A DNA stretch of 45,834 bases, from NCBI GenBank assembly GCA_012516175.1, contig JAAYWZ010000200.1, positions 1-45,834 of the forward strand. The letters run 5' to 3'. The notes below the pieces were generated by a model. It made no database searches. It worked only from the letters and a program-made list of their open reading frames with translations, and was not told the origin of the DNA. The stretch comes from Bacilli bacterium (lineage in GTDB: Bacteria; Bacillota_I; Bacilli_A; Haloplasmatales; Haloplasmataceae). The stretch's first letter is position 1; each line of letters opens with the position of its first letter. Positions 36,551 to 45,254 of the stretch are shown piece by piece. Made by a program: the position numbers and the translations under genes.

Positions 36551-36590
36551 CTTTTAGGATGTGAAAATTTCTACAAGGAGTGTTAAAAGA

Positions 36591-37979
36591 ATGAAGCTAT
36601 TTAAGGCGAAAAAAGGAGTTATCATTCCTGGAAAAAAAGATGATACTGCTAAACTAGCAACTGTATCATATACAAGCCCAGAATATGTTTACATTCCGTT
36701 ATCTGTTAAAGGTAATGATTTTGAGGTACTTGTAAAACCAGGTGATAAAGTTAAGTTAGGACAAAAAATCGCCGTACGCAAAACAGGAGTCCCTCTTGTT
36801 AAACATGCAACGGTAAGTGGTGAAGTTGTTGGTACAGAACGCAAGAATCATCGTACTGGACTTCCATATGTCTGCATTAAGATTAAGAATGACTTTCAAG
36901 ATGAAACATTAACATTTACGCCCATTGACTTTGAAAAAGCAACGAAAAATGAACTAATAGATCGTATTGAAGAAGCAGGTATCGTTGGTTTAGGTGGTGC
37001 AGGATTCCCCACCCATGCGAAATATCGTGGTGCCGAAAACATCGACACCGTCATTTTAAATGGTGCTGAGTGTGAACCATATTTAACTAGTGATTATCGG
37101 GTAATGATTGAAGATACTTTCCATGTTGTTAATGGTTTACGCATATTAATGAAAACTGCCCAAGCTGAAAAGGGTATTATCGTTCTAAAACAAGGTTATA
37201 AAGAAGCTTATGAAGCCTTAGTTAAAGAGTGTGCTCAATACGATAATTTACAAGTCTTCTTAGTTCCAAATCAATACCCAGCCGGTTGGGAACGTCAAGT
37301 TGTATATCGCACTTTAAAACGTCGTTACGAAAAATACCCCTATGAGTGTGGTGTTATTGTCAATAATATTTCAACGGCGGTTGCAGTAAGTGAAGCGATA
37401 ACTGAAGGGAAACCTTTAGTAGAACGTGTAATCACTGTTGGTGGTGAAGGTGTAATTAAACCTGGTAACTACCGTGTGCGCATCGGTACGCTCGCCAGTG
37501 AATTAATTAAACAAGCTGGTGGCATCGCAAAGGACTTAGGTGACGTCCGAATAATTGCTGGTGGGCCAATGATGGGTGTTGCGCAAAAGAATGATGATTT
37601 TGTCATTACAAGAGCACTTACAGGTATTTTAGTATTACTTGGTGAACATAAATACGAAGTTCCCCATAAGAAACCAGTTGGTGATGTGCTTTTAGATGTC
37701 TTACACTTTAGTGAACATGATCCACGTTTCTTTATTCGCGATGAACAACCATGTGTACGTTGTGGTTCCTGCGTTTTCAATTGTCCAGCAGGTTTACAAC
37801 CTACATTATTAAGAGATGCTGCCCTTGCTAAGGATGAAGTGCGATTAGGTAAATTAGATGTAATGGAATGTATCGATTGTGGTACATGTGCTTATGTATG
37901 TCCAAGCCATATATTAATTAATGATGCGATTCGTCGTGGTAAGACATACTATCAAGTAAAAGTAAAAAATACAAAGTAG
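36591..37979 (+). CDS. rnfC: Rnf complex subunit C
   Basis: 462 residues from ATG 36591 (AAGGAG ten bases before; the frame extends to 36561 without a good site). It carries the NADH/FMN-binding fold (GIVGLGGAGFPTHAKY, NGAECEPYLTSDYR) and two [4Fe-4S] motifs near the C-terminus: C388-x2-C391-x2-C394-x3-C398 and C427-x2-C430-x2-C433-x3-C437. RnfC is the membrane-associated subunit that exchanges electrons with NAD. The Rnf complex couples ferredoxin-NAD electron transfer to Na+ or H+ translocation. First gene of the operon C-D-G-E-A-x-B, which is the Clostridia-type order. The short, ferredoxin-less RnfB makes these two clusters in RnfC more important for electron entry. Confidence 0.96.
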   Translation: MKLFKAKKGVIIPGKKDDTAKLATVSYTSPEYVYIPLSVKGNDFEVLVKPGDKVKLGQKIAVRKTGVPLVKHATVSGEVVGTERKNHRTGLPYVCIKIKNDFQDETLTFTPIDFEKATKNELIDRIEEAGIVGLGGAGFPTHAKYRGAENIDTVILNGAECEPYLTSDYRVMIEDTFHVVNGLRILMKTAQAEKGIIVLKQGYKEAYEALVKECAQYDNLQVFLVPNQYPAGWERQVVYRTLKRRYEKYPYECGVIVNNISTAVAVSEAITEGKPLVERVITVGGEGVIKPGNYRVRIGTLASELIKQAGGIAKDLGDVRIIAGGPMMGVAQKNDDFVITRALTGILVLLGEHKYEVPHKKPVGDVLLDVLHFSEHDPRFFIRDEQPCVRCGSCVFNCPAGLQPTLLRDAALAKDEVRLGKLDVMECIDCGTCAYVCPSHILINDAIRRGKTYYQVKVKNTK

Positions 37980-38002
37980 TTTGATTGGGAAGGAGAATTA
38001 AC

Positions 38003-39241
38003 ATGACGAATATTCAAGTCGCACCGTATCCCCATATTCATAGCGGTCGCTCTACCCATAAATATATGTTAGATTTACCTATTACCACTTATCCCATGGC
38101 CATAGTCGCGATGCTATTTCAATTCTTATATGTGACGATTTTCTTAGATGCAACCTTTACGCAAGGAATAATAGTCGCAATTCGGGCAGGATTAGTCATC
38201 TTTACTGGTGTGTTTTCCTGTATCGCAGCGGAAACAATATGGAATAGATATGTAAAAAAGGAATTTAATGATTTTGCTGGTTGGTTCCGAAGCATGGCAA
38301 CCACCTATCCATCAATTACCGGTATGTTATATGCTTTATCACTACCATTTGGCACACCTTTATATGTTGTAATTCTTGGTGGTTTTGTCGCTATCATCAT
38401 CGGTAAAAGCCTCTTTGGTGGTGTCGGTCATAATATCTTCAACCCAGCATTAGTTGGACGAGCATTTGTAACTATTTCATTCACCTCGTTACTACAACAA
38501 GCTTCCAATTATCAATTAACGCCATTTAACTTAAATTTTGTTTCGATTTTCTTTGGTATTAATAATACCACAAGCGGTATTACTGATGCTGTTGCTGGTG
38601 CCACTCCACTTGCGATTGCTGCTAAAGAAGGTTTGTTTACCTTTGCAACTTTCAAAGAATTGTATGGTTCAATGTGGCGCATATTCTTAGGTTTTTATCC
38701 AAGTGCTGTTGGTGAAAGTCTATCATTCTGGATTGTTCTGGCTTTCGTTTATTTAGTAGTTAAGAAAACTATAAACTGGTTCGTTCCTGTCATCTATGTT
38801 GGTTTAGTCTTCCTCATGACTTGGGGTGTTGCATTACTAAATCAAGATGCATTAGGTTGGACTGGTTTTGGTGAAGCATTAAGTTTAAATACATTAGGTC
38901 TTTATTATCCATTATTCTATGTCTTAACGGGTGGTTTACTATTCGGGGCAGTCTTCATGGCTACAGAACCAGTAACCCAACCATTAACGAAACGCGGTCG
39001 AGTTATATTTGCAACATACTTAGCGATTATAACATTCGCGATTCGAACTTTAGGTAATTTACCTGAAGGTGTACTATTCTCCATCCTCTTTATGAACTCA
39101 TTTACGCCAATTATTGATAATGCCTTTATGGGTCAAAGAAAAGGTACATCTGTTAAAGAAATCATCTTTTGGGTGGTTACAGCTGGTTTGATCATCGGAC
39201 TAGTCTTCATGGCAAGTGCCCGTTTAGGAGGTATTAACTAA
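38003..39241 (+). CDS. rnfD: Rnf complex subunit D
   Basis: 412 residues from ATG 38003, with AAGGAG before it. Many transmembrane helices (about nine or ten). The GATPLAIA motif contains Thr 201, the expected site of covalent FMN attachment through phosphoester. GKSLFGGVGHNIFNPALVGRAF is the family's most conserved helix region (cited as GGVGHNIFNPALVGRAF, about residues 138-154). It forms part of the ion-translocating membrane core with RnfA and RnfE. The stop codon shares its last base with the rnfG start. Confidence 0.96.
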   Translation: MTNIQVAPYPHIHSGRSTHKYMLDLPITTYPMAIVAMLFQFLYVTIFLDATFTQGIIVAIRAGLVIFTGVFSCIAAETIWNRYVKKEFNDFAGWFRSMATTYPSITGMLYALSLPFGTPLYVVILGGFVAIIIGKSLFGGVGHNIFNPALVGRAFVTISFTSLLQQASNYQLTPFNLNFVSIFFGINNTTSGITDAVAGATPLAIAAKEGLFTFATFKELYGSMWRIFLGFYPSAVGESLSFWIVLAFVYLVVKKTINWFVPVIYVGLVFLMTWGVALLNQDALGWTGFGEALSLNTLGLYYPLFYVLTGGLLFGAVFMATEPVTQPLTKRGRVIFATYLAIITFAIRTLGNLPEGVLFSILFMNSFTPIIDNAFMGQRKGTSVKEIIFWVVTAGLIIGLVFMASARLGGIN

Positions 39242-39795
39242 TGAAAAAATACATTCATTTAACTTTAGTCCTCTTTATCATCGCATTTCTCAGTGGATTC
39301 TTAATGGGAGTAGTTAATGACCTTACCAAGGGACCAATTGCGGAAGCGCAAGCTAGAAAACTTGCCAATGGTGTTCAAGAAATTTTCAAAGAAGTTAATC
39401 TTGATGCCTTAAAAGATGAAAACAACACTGTTAAGTTAGATGATAAAACCCTTATAGAGTACTATCTAATTTATAATGATGATGAAGAATTAATCGGTTA
39501 TGTCTTTTATGTAGATGCTCCTAATGCTTATAAAGCGATTCAATTTATCGTCGGTATAGATATAAATGGTAAAGTACGTGGTCTTTCCTACTTAAATGTT
39601 GAAGAAACACCAGGTTTAGGTACAAAAGTAAAAGGAGACAGTTTTAAAGAAGATTTTGTTGGTAAAGATAATGTAAGTAACGTTGATATTATATCAGGCG
39701 CAACCAAAAGTAGTAATGCGGTGAAAAATGGTGTTCAACGTGCACTAGATTATTTCAATAAGAACCTCAAAGGAGGTACCAATAATGAACAATAA
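39241..39795 (+). CDS. rnfG: Rnf complex subunit G
   Basis: 184 residues. One N-terminal helix (about 6-26) and an outward-facing FMN-binding domain; IISGATKSSNAV holds Thr 155, the expected covalent FMN site. VEETPGLGTKV is also diagnostic. It passes electrons across the membrane side of the complex. AGGAGG lies 9 bases before the ATG inside the end of rnfD. Confidence 0.95.
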   Translation: MKKYIHLTLVLFIIAFLSGFLMGVVNDLTKGPIAEAQARKLANGVQEIFKEVNLDALKDENNTVKLDDKTLIEYYLIYNDDEELIGYVFYVDAPNAYKAIQFIVGIDINGKVRGLSYLNVEETPGLGTKVKGDSFKEDFVGKDNVSNVDIISGATKSSNAVKNGVQRALDYFNKNLKGGTNNEQ

Positions 39796-40402
39796 AGAAA
39801 ACTTTCTAAAAGGGATCTTTTCGGAAAACCCTGTCTTCATGTTAGTCTTAGGGATGTGTCCCGTCCTTGCGATTACTACTACAGTTACTAATGCGCTTGG
39901 TATGGGTTTAGCCTTCACCTTTGTCCTAATCATGTCAAATGTCATCATTTCATTAATTAGAAAATTTATTCCTAACGATATTCGGATTCCTGCTTATATC
40001 GTTGTTATTGCGACAGTTGTTACCATTGTTGATATGTTCATGCATGCCTATGCCTTTAGTTTATATGAAAGTCTAGGGATCTTCATTCCCTTAATCGTAG
40101 TTAACTGCGTCGTTTTAGGACGGGCAGAAGCGTTTGCGAGTAAAAATGGTGTCTTTGCGTCCTTCATCGATGCATTAGGAATGGGTGCTGGTTTTACATT
40201 ATCAATTACTCTAATATCAACTGTCAGAGAAGTATTGGGTTCCGGTACCTTCTTAGGCATAGATATCTTCCCATTTGATTTAGTACAACCAGCCAGTATC
40301 TTCGTTATCGCTCCAGGTGCTTTCATCACGTTAGGCATTTTATTAGGAATTATAAACACGATTCGCTTTAAACGTGCAAAGAAAGCCCAAGCGAAGGAAT
40401 AG
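39785..40402 (+). CDS. rnfE: Rnf complex subunit E
   Basis: 205 residues with six predicted helices. The two half-cluster cysteines are present: LGMCPVLA (Cys 25) and VVNCVVLGRAEAF (Cys 108). With the matching pair in RnfA they are expected to hold a [2Fe-2S] cluster inside the membrane. It overlaps rnfG by 11 bases and uses AAGGAGG. Homologous to NqrD of the Na+-NQR complex. Confidence 0.95.
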   Translation: MNNKENFLKGIFSENPVFMLVLGMCPVLAITTTVTNALGMGLAFTFVLIMSNVIISLIRKFIPNDIRIPAYIVVIATVVTIVDMFMHAYAFSLYESLGIFIPLIVVNCVVLGRAEAFASKNGVFASFIDALGMGAGFTLSITLISTVREVLGSGTFLGIDIFPFDLVQPASIFVIAPGAFITLGILLGIINTIRFKRAKKAQAKE

Positions 40403-40413
40403 GAGGATAAGCA

Positions 40414-40995
40414 ATGAATTTTGGTCAATTAGTAGCGTTGGCGTTTTCTGCCATCTTAATCCAAAACGTCATGTTAACACAATTTTTAGGTACATGCCCT
40501 TTCTTGGGTGTATCGAAAAAGAGTCAATCAGCCATTGGTATGGGTCTTGCGGTCATTTTCGTTATTACTTTATCATCCATATTAACATGGAGTGTTTACT
40601 GGCTTGTACTTGATCCCCTTGGTTTAGAATATATGCGAACGATTGTCTTCATCTTAATTATATCTGGGGTAGTTCAATTTGTGGAAATGTTCATTAAAAA
40701 GACCGCTCCAGCAATCTATAAGATGTTAGGAATTTATTTACCATTAATTACCACTAACTGTGCTGTATTAGGTGTAGCGTTAATTAATATCAATAAAGAA
40801 TTCAATTTCATCGAAATGGTTGTCTATAGTGTTGGTATTTCGGTTGGTTATGCTTTAGTTATCTATGTCTTCTCAACAATTCGGGAACGCATCGAAAAAG
40901 CACCCATCCCAGAAAGTTTTAAAGGTACGCCAATTGCATTAATAATCGCTGGGTTAATGTCCATTGCCTTTATTGGATTTGCGGGGATCTTATAA
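40414..40995 (+). CDS. rnfA: Rnf complex subunit A
   Basis: 193 residues with six predicted helices. FLGTCPFLGVS (Cys 28) and TTNCAVLGVAL (Cys 116) provide the second half of the intramembrane iron-sulfur site shared with RnfE. Homologous to NqrE. AGGAGG precedes the ATG. The next gene starts one base after the stop codon. Confidence 0.95.
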   Translation: MNFGQLVALAFSAILIQNVMLTQFLGTCPFLGVSKKSQSAIGMGLAVIFVITLSSILTWSVYWLVLDPLGLEYMRTIVFILIISGVVQFVEMFIKKTAPAIYKMLGIYLPLITTNCAVLGVALININKEFNFIEMVVYSVGISVGYALVIYVFSTIRERIEKAPIPESFKGTPIALIIAGLMSIAFIGFAGIL

Positions 40996-40996
40996 G

Positions 40997-41230
40997 ATGC
41001 AAGCACTATATATAGCTTTATTAATAACTGGTTTAGGTGCCTTTTTCGCAATTGGTTGGTATCTAAATAAAAAAACTCCACTTCCAGAAGGATGTGAGTT
41101 ACCAAGTTTAGCATGCGAACACTGCATGTCGTCTACTTGTAGTTTTGCAGAGCCAAATCGAAAAGAAGCACTTCTCCAAGAAATTAAACAAGACTTAACT
41201 AATTCAAAAGAAGGTGAAGTAAATGAATAG
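40997..41230 (+). CDS. Small four-Cys membrane protein in the rnf operon, NqrM-like
   Basis: 77 residues from ATG 40997. One N-terminal transmembrane helix (about 3-22) is followed by a short cytoplasmic tail with four cysteines at 33, 40, 43 and 48 (GCELPSLACEHCMSSTC) and a charged C-terminus. This layout, helix then compact Cys cluster, resembles NqrM, the assembly factor that supplies iron to the NqrD/NqrE site, and those subunits are homologues of RnfE/RnfA. It lies between rnfA and rnfB and overlaps rnfB by eight bases. A direct structural subunit is the alternative. The gene is clearly real; the role is inferred from analogy. Confidence 0.75.
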   Translation: MQALYIALLITGLGAFFAIGWYLNKKTPLPEGCELPSLACEHCMSSTCSFAEPNRKEALLQEIKQDLTNSKEGEVNE

Positions 41231-41552
41231 TCTCGTCAATGGCTTAATCGTTGCGGGCGTTGTGGGTGCGATTGGCGCGGTTATCGGATTAATATTAGCT
41301 TATGCTAGTAATGTCTTCCATGTTGAAGAAGATCCACGTTTTGATTTAATTGTTAAGAATTTGCCTGGATTTAACTGTGGTGTCTGTGGTTATCCTGGTT
41401 GTAGTGGGATGGCACAAGGATTACTTGATGGTAAAGCAGATGTTACCCAATGTAAACCTGGTACACAATTAACTTATGAAAAGGTTAAAGCAATTTTAAA
41501 AGGGGAAAACCCCGATTTAATTACTGAAGAAACACTAAGAGCCGCAAAATAG
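41223..41552 (+). CDS. rnfB: Rnf complex subunit B, short form without ferredoxin domain
   Basis: 109 residues. An N-terminal helix (about 7-28) is followed by the RnfB [4Fe-4S] domain, LPGFNCGVCGYPGCSGMA with Cys 52, 55, 60 and a fourth at 77 (QCKPG). Usual RnfB proteins continue for 70 to 200 more residues with two or more ferredoxin-type CxxCxxCxxxC clusters; this one stops at residue 109, and a terminator follows with no such motif in any frame I could see. It would anchor the domain at the membrane and take part in electron transfer, but the normal ferredoxin-docking part is missing. Last gene of the operon. Confidence 0.88.
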   Translation: MNSLVNGLIVAGVVGAIGAVIGLILAYASNVFHVEEDPRFDLIVKNLPGFNCGVCGYPGCSGMAQGLLDGKADVTQCKPGTQLTYEKVKAILKGENPDLITEETLRAAK

Positions 41553-41656: not shown

Positions 41657-41914
41657 ATGAAGAAGTTTCAATTATTCACCATGTGTGCTGCTTGTAACTG
41701 GAAAATTGAAAATACACTTAAGGAGAAGGGTATCACTGATTTTACTATCGATCACGCCAATAGCATCCTCACCTTTAAAAAGGAAGTAGATCCAGATATC
41801 ATTATCAAGATAATAAATAATACAGGTTACCATGTAGAAGAAATACCAGATAAAGAAGATTATTCCGATGAAGAGTACTTATTGCTTCAGGAGGAATTGC
41901 GCCAAGGCTATTAA
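41657..41914 (+). CDS. Small heavy-metal-associated (HMA) domain protein
   Basis: 85 residues. A ferredoxin-like HMA fold with the metal site MCAACNWKIENTL (Cys 10 and Cys 13), as in copper chaperones and the N-termini of P-type ATPases, and IINNTGYHVEE as the last strand and helix. A short acidic tail of about 20 residues follows. No metal ATPase or CsoR is next to it, so the metal is not certain; copper is the common ligand. Strong AGGAGG ribosome binding site. The stop codon lies within the terminator loop. Confidence 0.85.
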   Translation: MKKFQLFTMCAACNWKIENTLKEKGITDFTIDHANSILTFKKEVDPDIIIKIINNTGYHVEEIPDKEDYSDEEYLLLQEELRQGY

Positions 41915-41924: not shown

Positions 41925-42003
41925 ATTAGGTTAAAAGTATTTTAATAATTGGTAAAACTATGTTATACTAATATAGATATTAGATGCAGTAGAGGTGTTA
42001 GAG

Positions 42004-42486
42004 ATGCGCGAAGATTATTTATCTTGGGACCAATATTTCATGGGAATAGCTTTATTATCAGCAATGCGTAGCAAAGATGAAAACACTCAGGTTGGAGCTT
42101 GTATTGTCAATCCTGATAAACGTATCGTTGGTATTGGGTATAACGGATTACCATTTGGTTGTGATGACCGTGTTTATCCATGGGGTAGAGAAGGTGCTTG
42201 GTTAGATACGAAATATCCCTATGTTGTCCATGCGGAGCCCAATGCGATTTTAAACTCAACAAGCAACTTAAAGAATTGTACCATGTATGTTACATTATTT
42301 CCTTGTCATGAGTGTGCAAAGTTAATCATTCAAAGTGGAATTAAAGAAGTAGTGTATTATGATAGTAAATATGATGATTCTGACAGTGTAATTGCGGCAA
42401 AAAGAATGCTTGACTCAAGCGGAGTAACATATCGTTTGTTTGATGATATAAAGATTGAGGCAAGGGGTGCAATAAATGAAGGTTAA
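42004..42486 (+). CDS. comEB: dCMP deaminase (ComEB type)
   Basis: 160 residues from ATG 42004, with AGAGGTG before it. Zinc-dependent cytidine/deoxycytidylate deaminase signature: H76-A-E78 and P100-C101-x2-C104, where His and the two Cys bind zinc and Glu 78 is the proton shuttle. [22 protein letters not shown] and the early [13 protein letters not shown] region are typical of dCMP deaminase. It makes dUMP for thymidylate synthesis. The end overlaps the next gene by 11 bases. Confidence 0.9.
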
Positions 42487-43519
42487 GGAATGGTTGAAAA
42501 AGAACTATAAGTCACTAATTATCTACAGCATTATTTATATTACCCTTTTCATCTTTTTCACATATCCTTTACCTTATTCTGTGAATCTTCCTGGCGGCGT
42601 TGAAAATGAGAATGTCTTCTTAACAGTCGAAAATCCCTATCCGCATAAAAAAGTTAAAGGCTCTTTTAATTCATCCTATGTAACAGTAGTGGATAAACCC
42701 AGTCCTTTTCAATATATCCTTGCCAAGTATAATCGAAAAGCAGAAATCTTTAAGATGAGTAAGGTAACATACTCAGAACCAATCGCAGAACTACTTGAAA
42801 AAGATAAATTATATAAGGCTAGTTCTATTTATAATGCCTTAATCGCTTCTTATAAAGCAGCAGGAAAAGAGTTAAAATATGAAGAAAATGGATTAGTCAT
42901 AATTGATCGCATTGAAAATACACCTGCCTATGAGTTGATCAAAGTTGGAGACATTATCATTAAAGTAAATGATAATCCCGTTAAGAATTATGATGAAACT
43001 TGGAATGCTTTATCAAAGATTAAATGTGAAGAACCATTTACACTCACTGTTTTAAGAAACAATAAAGAAGTTGTAATTAATATCAAGAAAACTTTTATTG
43101 AATCAGAAAATAGATGTATCCTAGGTTTATATAAAGGATATACTTATACCAATATTGTTTTGGATTTTGAAAACTCTAATCCGCGAATTATTAATATTGA
43201 CTGGTCAGGTTATGGTCCAAGTGCTGGCTTTATGCAAGCATTGAGTATATATAATATGCTTAGTCCCATTGATATCACTTTTGGTTTAAAAATTGCTGGT
43301 ACTGGTACGATAGATATTAATGGTAATGTTGGTCCCATTGGTGGGATTAAACAGAAGGTTTATGGTGCCTGCAAAGCCAAAGTTGATATTTTCTTTACCC
43401 CTCCATTTCATTATCAAGAAGCTGTGGAAGCTCGCGATTTGATGAAATCAAAGATGAAAATTATCTCTGTAGAGACTCTTGAGAAAGCGATTAATCACTT
43501 AATGGAGAATTATGGATAA
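42476..43519 (+). CDS. SepM/YlbL-like PDZ and Lon-type serine protease
   Basis: 347 residues. An N-terminal helix (about 13-31) anchors it in the membrane, a PDZ domain (about 125-205, [26 protein letters not shown] region) binds substrates, and a Lon-type Ser-Lys dyad domain follows: Ser 249 in [12 protein letters not shown] and Lys 292 in GGIKQKV. This is the SepM/YlbL family, which cleaves exported peptides or membrane proteins on the outer side of the membrane. Length matches the family. It is co-transcribed with comEB and with a small membrane protein gene. Confidence 0.9.
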
Positions 43520-43868
43520 AATTAAAACCTTCTTTAGAACGCTTTATCATAATACTTTTAGAGATAGCGCGTTCCGAAAGTTAACTTTATCTACTAGATT
43601 AAAAGCTTATATCCTCCTATCAATTTTAATCGCTTTCTTTGCGAATCTCTACATTTATGGATCATATAAAGAATTAACCTTTATTATTTTTATGGTTACG
43701 TCCACGGTTTTTTCCTATTTTTTATTTTTAATCTTAAATATGATTAAATCAAATTCCTATAAACATTTGAAACTTCATTACTTAATTACGTATTTATTTG
43801 CTGAAATCATTATCGTTAGTTTAATCATTATTAGAATCTATTTTTATATTAAATCAATTGTTATGTAA
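43512..43868 (+). CDS. Small membrane protein of unknown function
   Basis: 118 residues. Basic N-terminus (residues 1-30), then three predicted transmembrane helices (about 31-50, 54-76 and 89-112). I do not recognise a family. It overlaps the protease gene by eight bases and lies nine bases before lspA, so it belongs to this operon and may act in membrane protein or lipoprotein processing, though the sequence does not show it. Confidence 0.75.
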   Translation: MDKIKTFFRTLYHNTFRDSAFRKLTLSTRLKAYILLSILIAFFANLYIYGSYKELTFIIFMVTSTVFSYFLFLILNMIKSNSYKHLKLHYLITYLFAEIIIVSLIIIRIYFYIKSIVM

Positions 43869-43877
43869 GGTGTAAAA

Positions 43878-44324
43878 ATGGTTGCCATCATTTCGTTAAT
43901 TCTAATTCTGGTAAGTTTGGACCAATTAACTAAATTCTTCGCAGTAAAATACTTAACTGTTGAGAATGAATATATTTTGAAAATCCCTTTTATCCGTTTT
44001 TACTTAACCTATAATACCGGTGCAGCTTTAGGTATTTTACAAAGTCATGGGGTACTGTTAGCCATCATTAAAACTATAGCCTTCAGTGTATTTGGTTTCC
44101 TTTTATATCGCGATGGCGACTTAGTTAATAATGCAATCTACACCATCTCTTTAATCTTCTTAATTTCCGGCACTTTAGGGAATCTAACATGTCGGTTAAT
44201 CAGAAGAAAAGTCGTTGATTTCTTGATGCTTTCTTTCAATAGGTTTTCAACCCCCATCTTTAACCTAGCGGATCTATACGTTTTAATTGGGTTAATCACA
44301 TTCATCATAACACAACTTTTGTAA
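43878..44324 (+). CDS. lspA: Lipoprotein signal peptidase (LspA)
   Basis: 148 residues, four predicted helices. It cleaves the signal peptide of lipoproteins after lipid attachment; this window alone encodes at least six such lipoproteins. Conserved motifs: SLDQLTK (Asp 15), TYNTGAALG (Asn 46), GNLTCRL, KVVDF (catalytic Asp 114) and FNLADLYVLIG (catalytic Asp 132). The usual GNxxDR motif reads GNLTCRL, with Cys 105 replacing the normally conserved Asp, and SGTLGN replaces the usual GGALGN. Catalytic residues are kept, so activity is likely. It is followed by an RluD-type gene, a common arrangement in Bacillota. Confidence 0.9.
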   Translation: MVAIISLILILVSLDQLTKFFAVKYLTVENEYILKIPFIRFYLTYNTGAALGILQSHGVLLAIIKTIAFSVFGFLLYRDGDLVNNAIYTISLIFLISGTLGNLTCRLIRRKVVDFLMLSFNRFSTPIFNLADLYVLIGLITFIITQLL

Positions 44325-44336
44325 AGGGGTGATAAG

Positions 44337-45254
44337 ATGGAAACATTAGTATACGTTGTGCAAGAAGAAGATAATGGTACTAGGCTTGATAAACTAATTG
44401 CGACTGTGTTTACAGAGTTTTCGCGCAATCAAGTTAAAAAAATGATGGAAGAAGAACTTATTGAAGTAAATAAAAGAATCGAAAAACCCAGTTATAAAGT
44501 AAACTGGGGAGATGTAATCGTCGTTAAAGTTAAAGACCCTGCTCATTTGGACGTTCAGCCAGAAAATATCCCGCTCGATATTTATTACGAAGATGAAGAT
44601 GTTATCGTTATTAATAAACCGAGTGGAATGGTAGTGCACCCAGCCAATGGTCATTTTACTGGTACCTTAGTTAATGCGATGTTATATCATTGTGACGACT
44701 TATCAGGGATTAATGGTGTGATTCGCCCAGGTGTAGTTCATCGTATCGATAAGGATACCTCGGGTTTACTCGTAATGGCTAAAAATGATGAAGCCCATAT
44801 TTCCCTAGCTGAACAATTTAAAGAAAAAGTCACAAAACGTATATATTATGCCATCTGTCACGGGAATATCTTACATGAGGAGGGTACCATCGATGCCCCC
44901 ATTGGTCGTGATAAGAATGACCGTACAAAAATGGCTGTAGTGGCTGGTGGGAGAACTGCAGTTACGCATTATAAAGTACTTGAACATTTAGGACCATATA
45001 CATATATCGCCTGTCAGTTAGAGACAGGTAGAACCCATCAAATTAGAGTGCATATGAGTTATATAGGATATCCATTAGTTGGTGATACTAAATATGGTCC
45101 GAAAAAGCCTGTAGGTAGGGAAGGACAATACTTACATGCAGCTTTACTAGGTTTTTATCATCCTCGCACCCAAGAATTTATGGAATTTGAAGCACCACTA
45201 CCGGATTATTTTCAGGAGTTCTTAGAGAAGTTACACAAAATGTACAAATCATAA
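44337..45254 (+). CDS. rluD: RluA/RluD-family 23S rRNA pseudouridine synthase
   Basis: 305 residues. An S4 RNA-binding domain (about 13-62, RLDKLIATVFTEFSRNQVKKM) and the synthase domain with the family signature VVHRIDKDTSGLLVMAK; Asp 138 is the expected catalytic residue. RTHQIRVHMSYIGYPLVGD is the second signature. It converts uridines in 23S rRNA to pseudouridine in the cytoplasm. GGGGTGA ribosome binding site. The gene lies 12 bases after lspA. RluD is the best symbol, but other RluA-family specificities cannot be ruled out. Confidence 0.92.
   Translation: METLVYVVQEEDNGTRLDKLIATVFTEFSRNQVKKMMEEELIEVNKRIEKPSYKVNWGDVIVVKVKDPAHLDVQPENIPLDIYYEDEDVIVINKPSGMVVHPANGHFTGTLVNAMLYHCDDLSGINGVIRPGVVHRIDKDTSGLLVMAKNDEAHISLAEQFKEKVTKRIYYAICHGNILHEEGTIDAPIGRDKNDRTKMAVVAGGRTAVTHYKVLEHLGPYTYIACQLETGRTHQIRVHMSYIGYPLVGDTKYGPKKPVGREGQYLHAALLGFYHPRTQEFMEFEAPLPDYFQEFLEKLHKMYKS

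Follow-up and report, generated by a model that had tools for sequence, protein, structure and literature searches.

The rnf operon in the window (the whole stretch of DNA that was analysed, 45,834 nucleotides) carries, between rnfA and rnfB, a gene encoding a small single-helix membrane protein with four cysteines, hereafter X. Rnf serves anaerobes as a central ion pump, and the existence of a cysteine microprotein dedicated to it is well supported: X belongs to a family that has no name in Pfam or NCBIfam and that tracks one lineage of Rnf, the one with a short RnfB, across the host's class.

The operon, entirely on the forward strand, has the order rnfC-D-G-E-A-X-B, with rnfC at 36561-37979, rnfD at 37985-39241 (longest ORF; the real start is possibly slightly downstream), rnfG at 39241-39795, rnfE at 39785-40402, rnfA at 40414-40995, X at 40997-41230 and rnfB at 41223-41552. 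The X ORF begins 1 base past the rnfA stop codon, and its last 8 bases are shared with the start of rnfB. Its translation, MQALYIALLITGLGAFFAIGWYLNKKTPLPEGCELPSLACEHCMSSTCSFAEPNRKEALLQEIKQDLTNSKEGEVNE, is 77 residues long and exhibits one predicted transmembrane-type helix (residues 2-26; 41000-41074), followed by a C33-x6-C40-x2-C43-x4-C48 motif (41093-41140). The length, the single helix and the cysteine positions had been described correctly in the first-pass annotation, as had the cysteines C25 and C108 of RnfE and C28 and C116 of RnfA. The RnfB of the window is a short form of 109 residues, composed of a helix and one PF04060 FeS domain (C52, C55, C60 and C77), from which ferredoxin domains are absent. 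In the close relatives L003, L006, L007 and L008, RnfB measured 183-194 residues, and that of L006 (1714-2268) exhibited two PF04060 domains versus one in the window. Moreover, an ORF for an HMA (heavy-metal-associated, CopZ-like) protein was observed immediately after rnfB in the window (41657-41914, forward strand), and a CsoR-like ORF was found at the matching position in L003.

In an alignment of 38 sequences, relatives sharing 25-94% identity with X retained T27, P30, C40, C43 and C48, so that the last three cysteines of the motif were invariant; C33 was not, being conserved at >90%. The consensus was characterized by the helix, then a [LF]N-KTP-P-GC segment, then C-x2-C-x4-C. A profile built from these 38 sequences and run against 395 genomes of the host's class detected X in 184 of them (E ≤ 0.01), and X was present in all 8 of the genomes covered from the host's order. 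Because of these conserved residues and this distribution, the ORF is a member of a genuine family and not a chance ORF. No Pfam or NCBIfam family claimed the window X, and no related chain was found in the PDB, either for X or for NqrM. The AlphaFold2 model of X had a mean pLDDT of 62.8, with values below 50 in the cysteine region. One genome (G004) harboured a second, diverged copy (L009 1480-1680), about 1.5 kb away from the first.

The mean number of lysine and arginine residues across the X sequences was 0.30 before the helix, versus 2.18 over the ten residues that follow it. Since the basic residues follow the helix, the positive-inside rule predicts that X should adopt an N-out/C-in orientation, with its cysteines in the cytoplasm, on the same side as the FeS domain of RnfB. 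The cysteine pattern itself varied in a regular way: a cysteine located after the core was found in none of the 61 distinct sequences in which the upstream cysteine was present, versus 8 of the 11 in which it was absent, and which gained a cysteine 19-25 residues past the core. Seven of these eight swapped forms came from family f16, the other being that of L003. Three-cysteine forms were observed in L008, L094 and L095, and the upstream cysteine was shifted to position 27 in L093. Because the loss of Cys33 was usually paired with a new downstream cysteine, this exchange, mostly seen in one clade, points indirectly to a metal or cluster site with four ligands in X.

X and an rnfA-type match were found together in 179 of the 395 genomes, rnfA only in 34, X only in 5 and neither in 177. 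X was thus present in 179 of the 213 genomes with an rnfA-type match, versus 5 of the 182 without (Fisher p 5e-69, a descriptive value, since the genomes are related). Among the matches listed, 82 out of 106 X genes for which an rnfA was listed as well were located 0-35 bases downstream of rnfA, on the same strand. The others mainly belonged to families f16 and f22, in which X lies outside the rnf operon, and most of these genomes retained rnf at another site. According to gene names read from the ORFs, the unlinked X precedes a comEB dCMP-deaminase cluster in f16 and is inserted between phosphoglucomutase-like and uracil-DNA-glycosylase-like genes in f22. The f16 site (L083-L088, L091) corresponds to the comEB-PDZ-lspA-rluD cluster located after rnf in the window (41995-45254).

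The 34 genomes with rnfA only were sorted by hand. Ten contained NQR only, their "rnfA" being NqrE (NqrF domains were shown for L143, and the other genomes were assigned by their position in the RnfA tree). Seven had a long RnfB, with frames of about 265-286 residues, one of which (G231) was cut by a contig end. Another seven carried a short divergent or micro form of X that fell below profile detection, for example MAYIILILLSILTIYLYSKNDNCSKNACGNCKGCYK in L138, MSYIIIIVLIVLNLFLYKKNKKNNRCLNCNEDCELRIK in L110 and MIGFVIVLLLFILTFILYRVNKTKEKCKGCDLCQL in L142, the micro forms ranging from 33 to 57 residues. In one of these seven, G234, X was seen just as a fragment at the end of a contig. One further genome, G096, had a degenerate operon. 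Finally, X was not found in nine genomes with a short RnfB (G042, G067, G176, G224, G251, G265, G285, G327 and G343), several of which are incomplete. Among the five genomes with X only, two (G210 and G262) have a completeness of about 85%, two more (G185 and G232) gave weak matches, and G190 is a real exception: no rnf match was obtained, and its X-like gene (L168 3651-3887) lies downstream of a 1020-residue ORF of unknown function. Two positives were doubtful, namely G332 (E 0.001), whose RnfB is long, and G205 (E 0.006), a member of the NQR genus. As most X-negative genomes had NQR only, a clostridial-type long RnfB or a missed micro-X, X therefore tracks one Rnf lineage, that with the short RnfB devoid of ferredoxin domains. 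In the NQR operons of genera of the class, NqrE was followed by an NqrF-like ORF of 358-362 residues (L143, L146, L148, L151 and L153), and no NqrM scored above the PF04400 cut-off.

The phylum-wide survey returned the host's class alone; the distribution outside the class was assessed on six plasmid-collection records (one of which, L179, had poor ORF calls) and by a search for related loci. In records from Clostridia and Fusobacterium, a long RnfB was encoded directly after rnfA, and X was absent. Long-RnfB operons with no convincing X were also found within the class, in groups f5 g63 and f13 g176/g179. In an RnfA tree, short-RnfB operons were separate from long-RnfB operons, and the long-RnfB operons of the class either grouped with those of Clostridia and Fusobacterium or were basal, both with modest support. 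The most plausible view is that X and the short RnfB were inherited together as one operon type, and the link between them consequently rests on few independent events. An operon akin to rnf/nqr, with a 2Fe-2S-domain protein in the rnfB position (L177 2323-3435), was observed on an Ilyobacter plasmid.

The first-pass annotation had proposed a dedicated, NqrM-like protein for Rnf. The first half of this proposal stood, a dedicated Rnf-linked single-helix protein with four cysteines being common in the rnf operons of the class; the kinship with NqrM was not borne out. NqrM, which seems to be needed for the [2Fe-2S] centre of NQR equivalent to the RnfA/RnfE site (PMC12174285), does resemble X in its size (about 65-75 residues), N-terminal helix, basic stretch and four cysteines, and in its link to a complex belonging to the same superfamily; in Enterobacter NqrM, the first cysteine even falls at residue 33, as in X. 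However, the window X had no match to PF04400 at E ≤ 10, and this family was not among the 25 listed in a Pfam scan of the 38 X members. The hhalign comparison, limited by the six sequences available for NqrM, covered only 23-29 helix columns, with a probability of 62 for one X alignment and 30 for another, and 16 out of 150 within-segment column shuffles scored as high. Outside the helix, the cysteine spacings differ (x6/x2/x4 in X versus x11/x1/x3 in NqrM), as do the GSCGG motif of NqrM and the motif of X. Moreover, NqrM serves NQR and is encoded after nqrF or apbE, whereas X occurs in rnf operons and is missing from NQR-only genomes. A PF04400 search in the host's own genome and 25 other genomes of the class gave nothing above cut-off, and NQR-bearing genomes of the class had neither X nor an above-cut-off NqrM. 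Membership of X in PF04400 was rejected on account of the missing profile match and of a helix-only alignment within the range of shuffles, and it is highly improbable that X is a true NqrM that diverged while serving Rnf. In the literature searched, we found no dedicated Rnf factor comparable to NqrM. The lone Pfam family matched by many X members was PF12669 (FeoB-associated cysteine-rich proteins), with weak matches for 20 of the 38 (best E 8e-4, below cut-off) and none for the window X. These proteins likewise have a single helix followed by a CxxC-type cysteine cluster, and this common design, together with the unlinked X of families f16 and f22, would suit an iron-responsive or proteostasis membrane accessory, kin to the FeoB-associated proteins, that stabilises or regulates Rnf instead of supplying metal. 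We consider this unlikely: X co-occurs with Rnf and is encoded within rnf operons instead of feo operons, and the profile comparison with five FeoB-associated sequences (score 21.4) did not clearly exceed shuffles, 6 out of 150 of which were as good. The PF12669 proteins found in the class adjoin FeoB-like frames, and the family lacks the N-KTP-P-GC segment. Small single-helix cysteine-rich ORFs adjoining FeoB-like frames were observed in L099, L101, L102 and L104, that of L102 being strikingly similar to the f16 form of X. Other lineages likewise have accessory proteins associated with Rnf or Rsx, namely RseC and RnfH (PMC12174285). The RseC family was not among the Pfam matches listed for X. 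RnfH is cytoplasmic and has no cofactor.

Two readings are thus left in close rivalry, X being either an assembly accessory or a small Fe-S subunit. As a subunit, X would be the seventh stoichiometric component of Rnf: an Fe-S (or zinc) protein anchored in the membrane beside the short RnfB, whose missing ferredoxin domains it would offset, and perhaps descended from the N-terminal module of RnfB. Such a role is favoured by the embedded, overlapping gene and by the near-exclusive pairing of X with short RnfB, no convincing case being seen with a long one. Although X matched neither TIGR01944 nor PF04060, it shares a helix and a CxxCx4C motif with the N-terminal module of RnfB, which consists of a helix and a PF04060 FeS domain; the fourth cysteine lies downstream in RnfB and usually upstream in X, and the swapped forms of X have it downstream, as in RnfB. 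The hhalign comparison with 66 RnfB N-termini spanned 56 columns, including the helix and CxxCx4C (P 2e-6), and its match-column score of 29.1 was reached by none of 150 shuffles of both segments (mean 15.6), although 4 out of 150 were as high when only the post-helix part was shuffled. With power-matched sets of six RnfB sequences, the mean score dropped to 18.6, the level of NqrM, so the contrast between RnfB and NqrM partly reflects alignment depth; the idea that X is closer to RnfB than to NqrM was reduced to a suggestive one, since the difference vanished in these subsets. Kinship with RnfB is consequently a suggestive lead rather than an established homology, and single-sequence HMM scores were weak. 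Further points stand against a subunit: some forms of X have three cysteines or just 33-38 residues, and a few short-RnfB genomes have no detectable X. In Thermotoga maritima, moreover, the purified complex is active with a 10.6-kDa, one-cluster RnfB and the gene order rnfCDGEAB (PMC7414866), which indicates that a short RnfB as such needs no X and weakens the notion that every short RnfB has its missing ferredoxin domains replaced by X. Overall, we regard the subunit role as possible, with the balance of probability against it. Its boldest version appears doubtful, namely a class-wide seven-subunit Rnf whose ferredoxin-accepting RnfB portion would have given way to a short RnfB and a separate, RnfB-derived, membrane-anchored four-cysteine Fe-S microprotein, as small as about 33 residues where genomes are reduced.

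We tentatively propose, at slightly less than even confidence, that X is an Rnf accessory specific to this lineage, with a role in handling iron or Fe-S while the complex is being assembled. The helix of X would anchor its cysteines on the cytoplasmic side, next to both RnfA/RnfE and the short RnfB's FeS domain; iron or an Fe-S cluster might be held for a time by these three or four cysteines, and X would pass it to Rnf during assembly, in a manner resembling NqrM in action but in a protein not recognisable as NqrM. The recipient could be either the RnfA/RnfE [2Fe-2S] site or the FeS domain of RnfB; in Rnf, electrons leave RnfB and cross the RnfA/RnfE metal centre, the FeS domain of RnfB being the proposed mobile shuttle (PMC9588780; PMC12174285). 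X may build the RnfA/RnfE site, an idea weakened by the fact that Rnf with a long RnfB has RnfA/RnfE without X. The assembly role is slightly preferred to that of a subunit because three-cysteine, swapped and micro forms are tolerated and because the gene can leave the operon, many rnf genomes keeping X after its relocation. The variable cysteine spacing and the three-cysteine and micro forms are likewise more in keeping with a metal carrier than with a tuned redox centre. Also in favour of the accessory role are the co-occurrence and linkage of X with rnfA, its absence alongside a long RnfB or NQR only, the cysteine exchange, the basic residues after the helix, the weak PF12669 matches of 20 members and the comparable size and build of NqrM. 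Against the assembly role, X shows no demonstrated homology to any assembly factor, its gene is wedged between those of two subunits, with an overlap into rnfB, as expected for a subunit gene, and the cysteine exchange is mainly confined to one clade (f16) plus L003.

To our knowledge, little is known of how the iron-sulfur parts of Rnf are installed. X, which is invisible to current annotation libraries and follows one Rnf lineage across a class rich in gut bacteria, would be either a dedicated Rnf assembly factor or an overlooked Rnf subunit.
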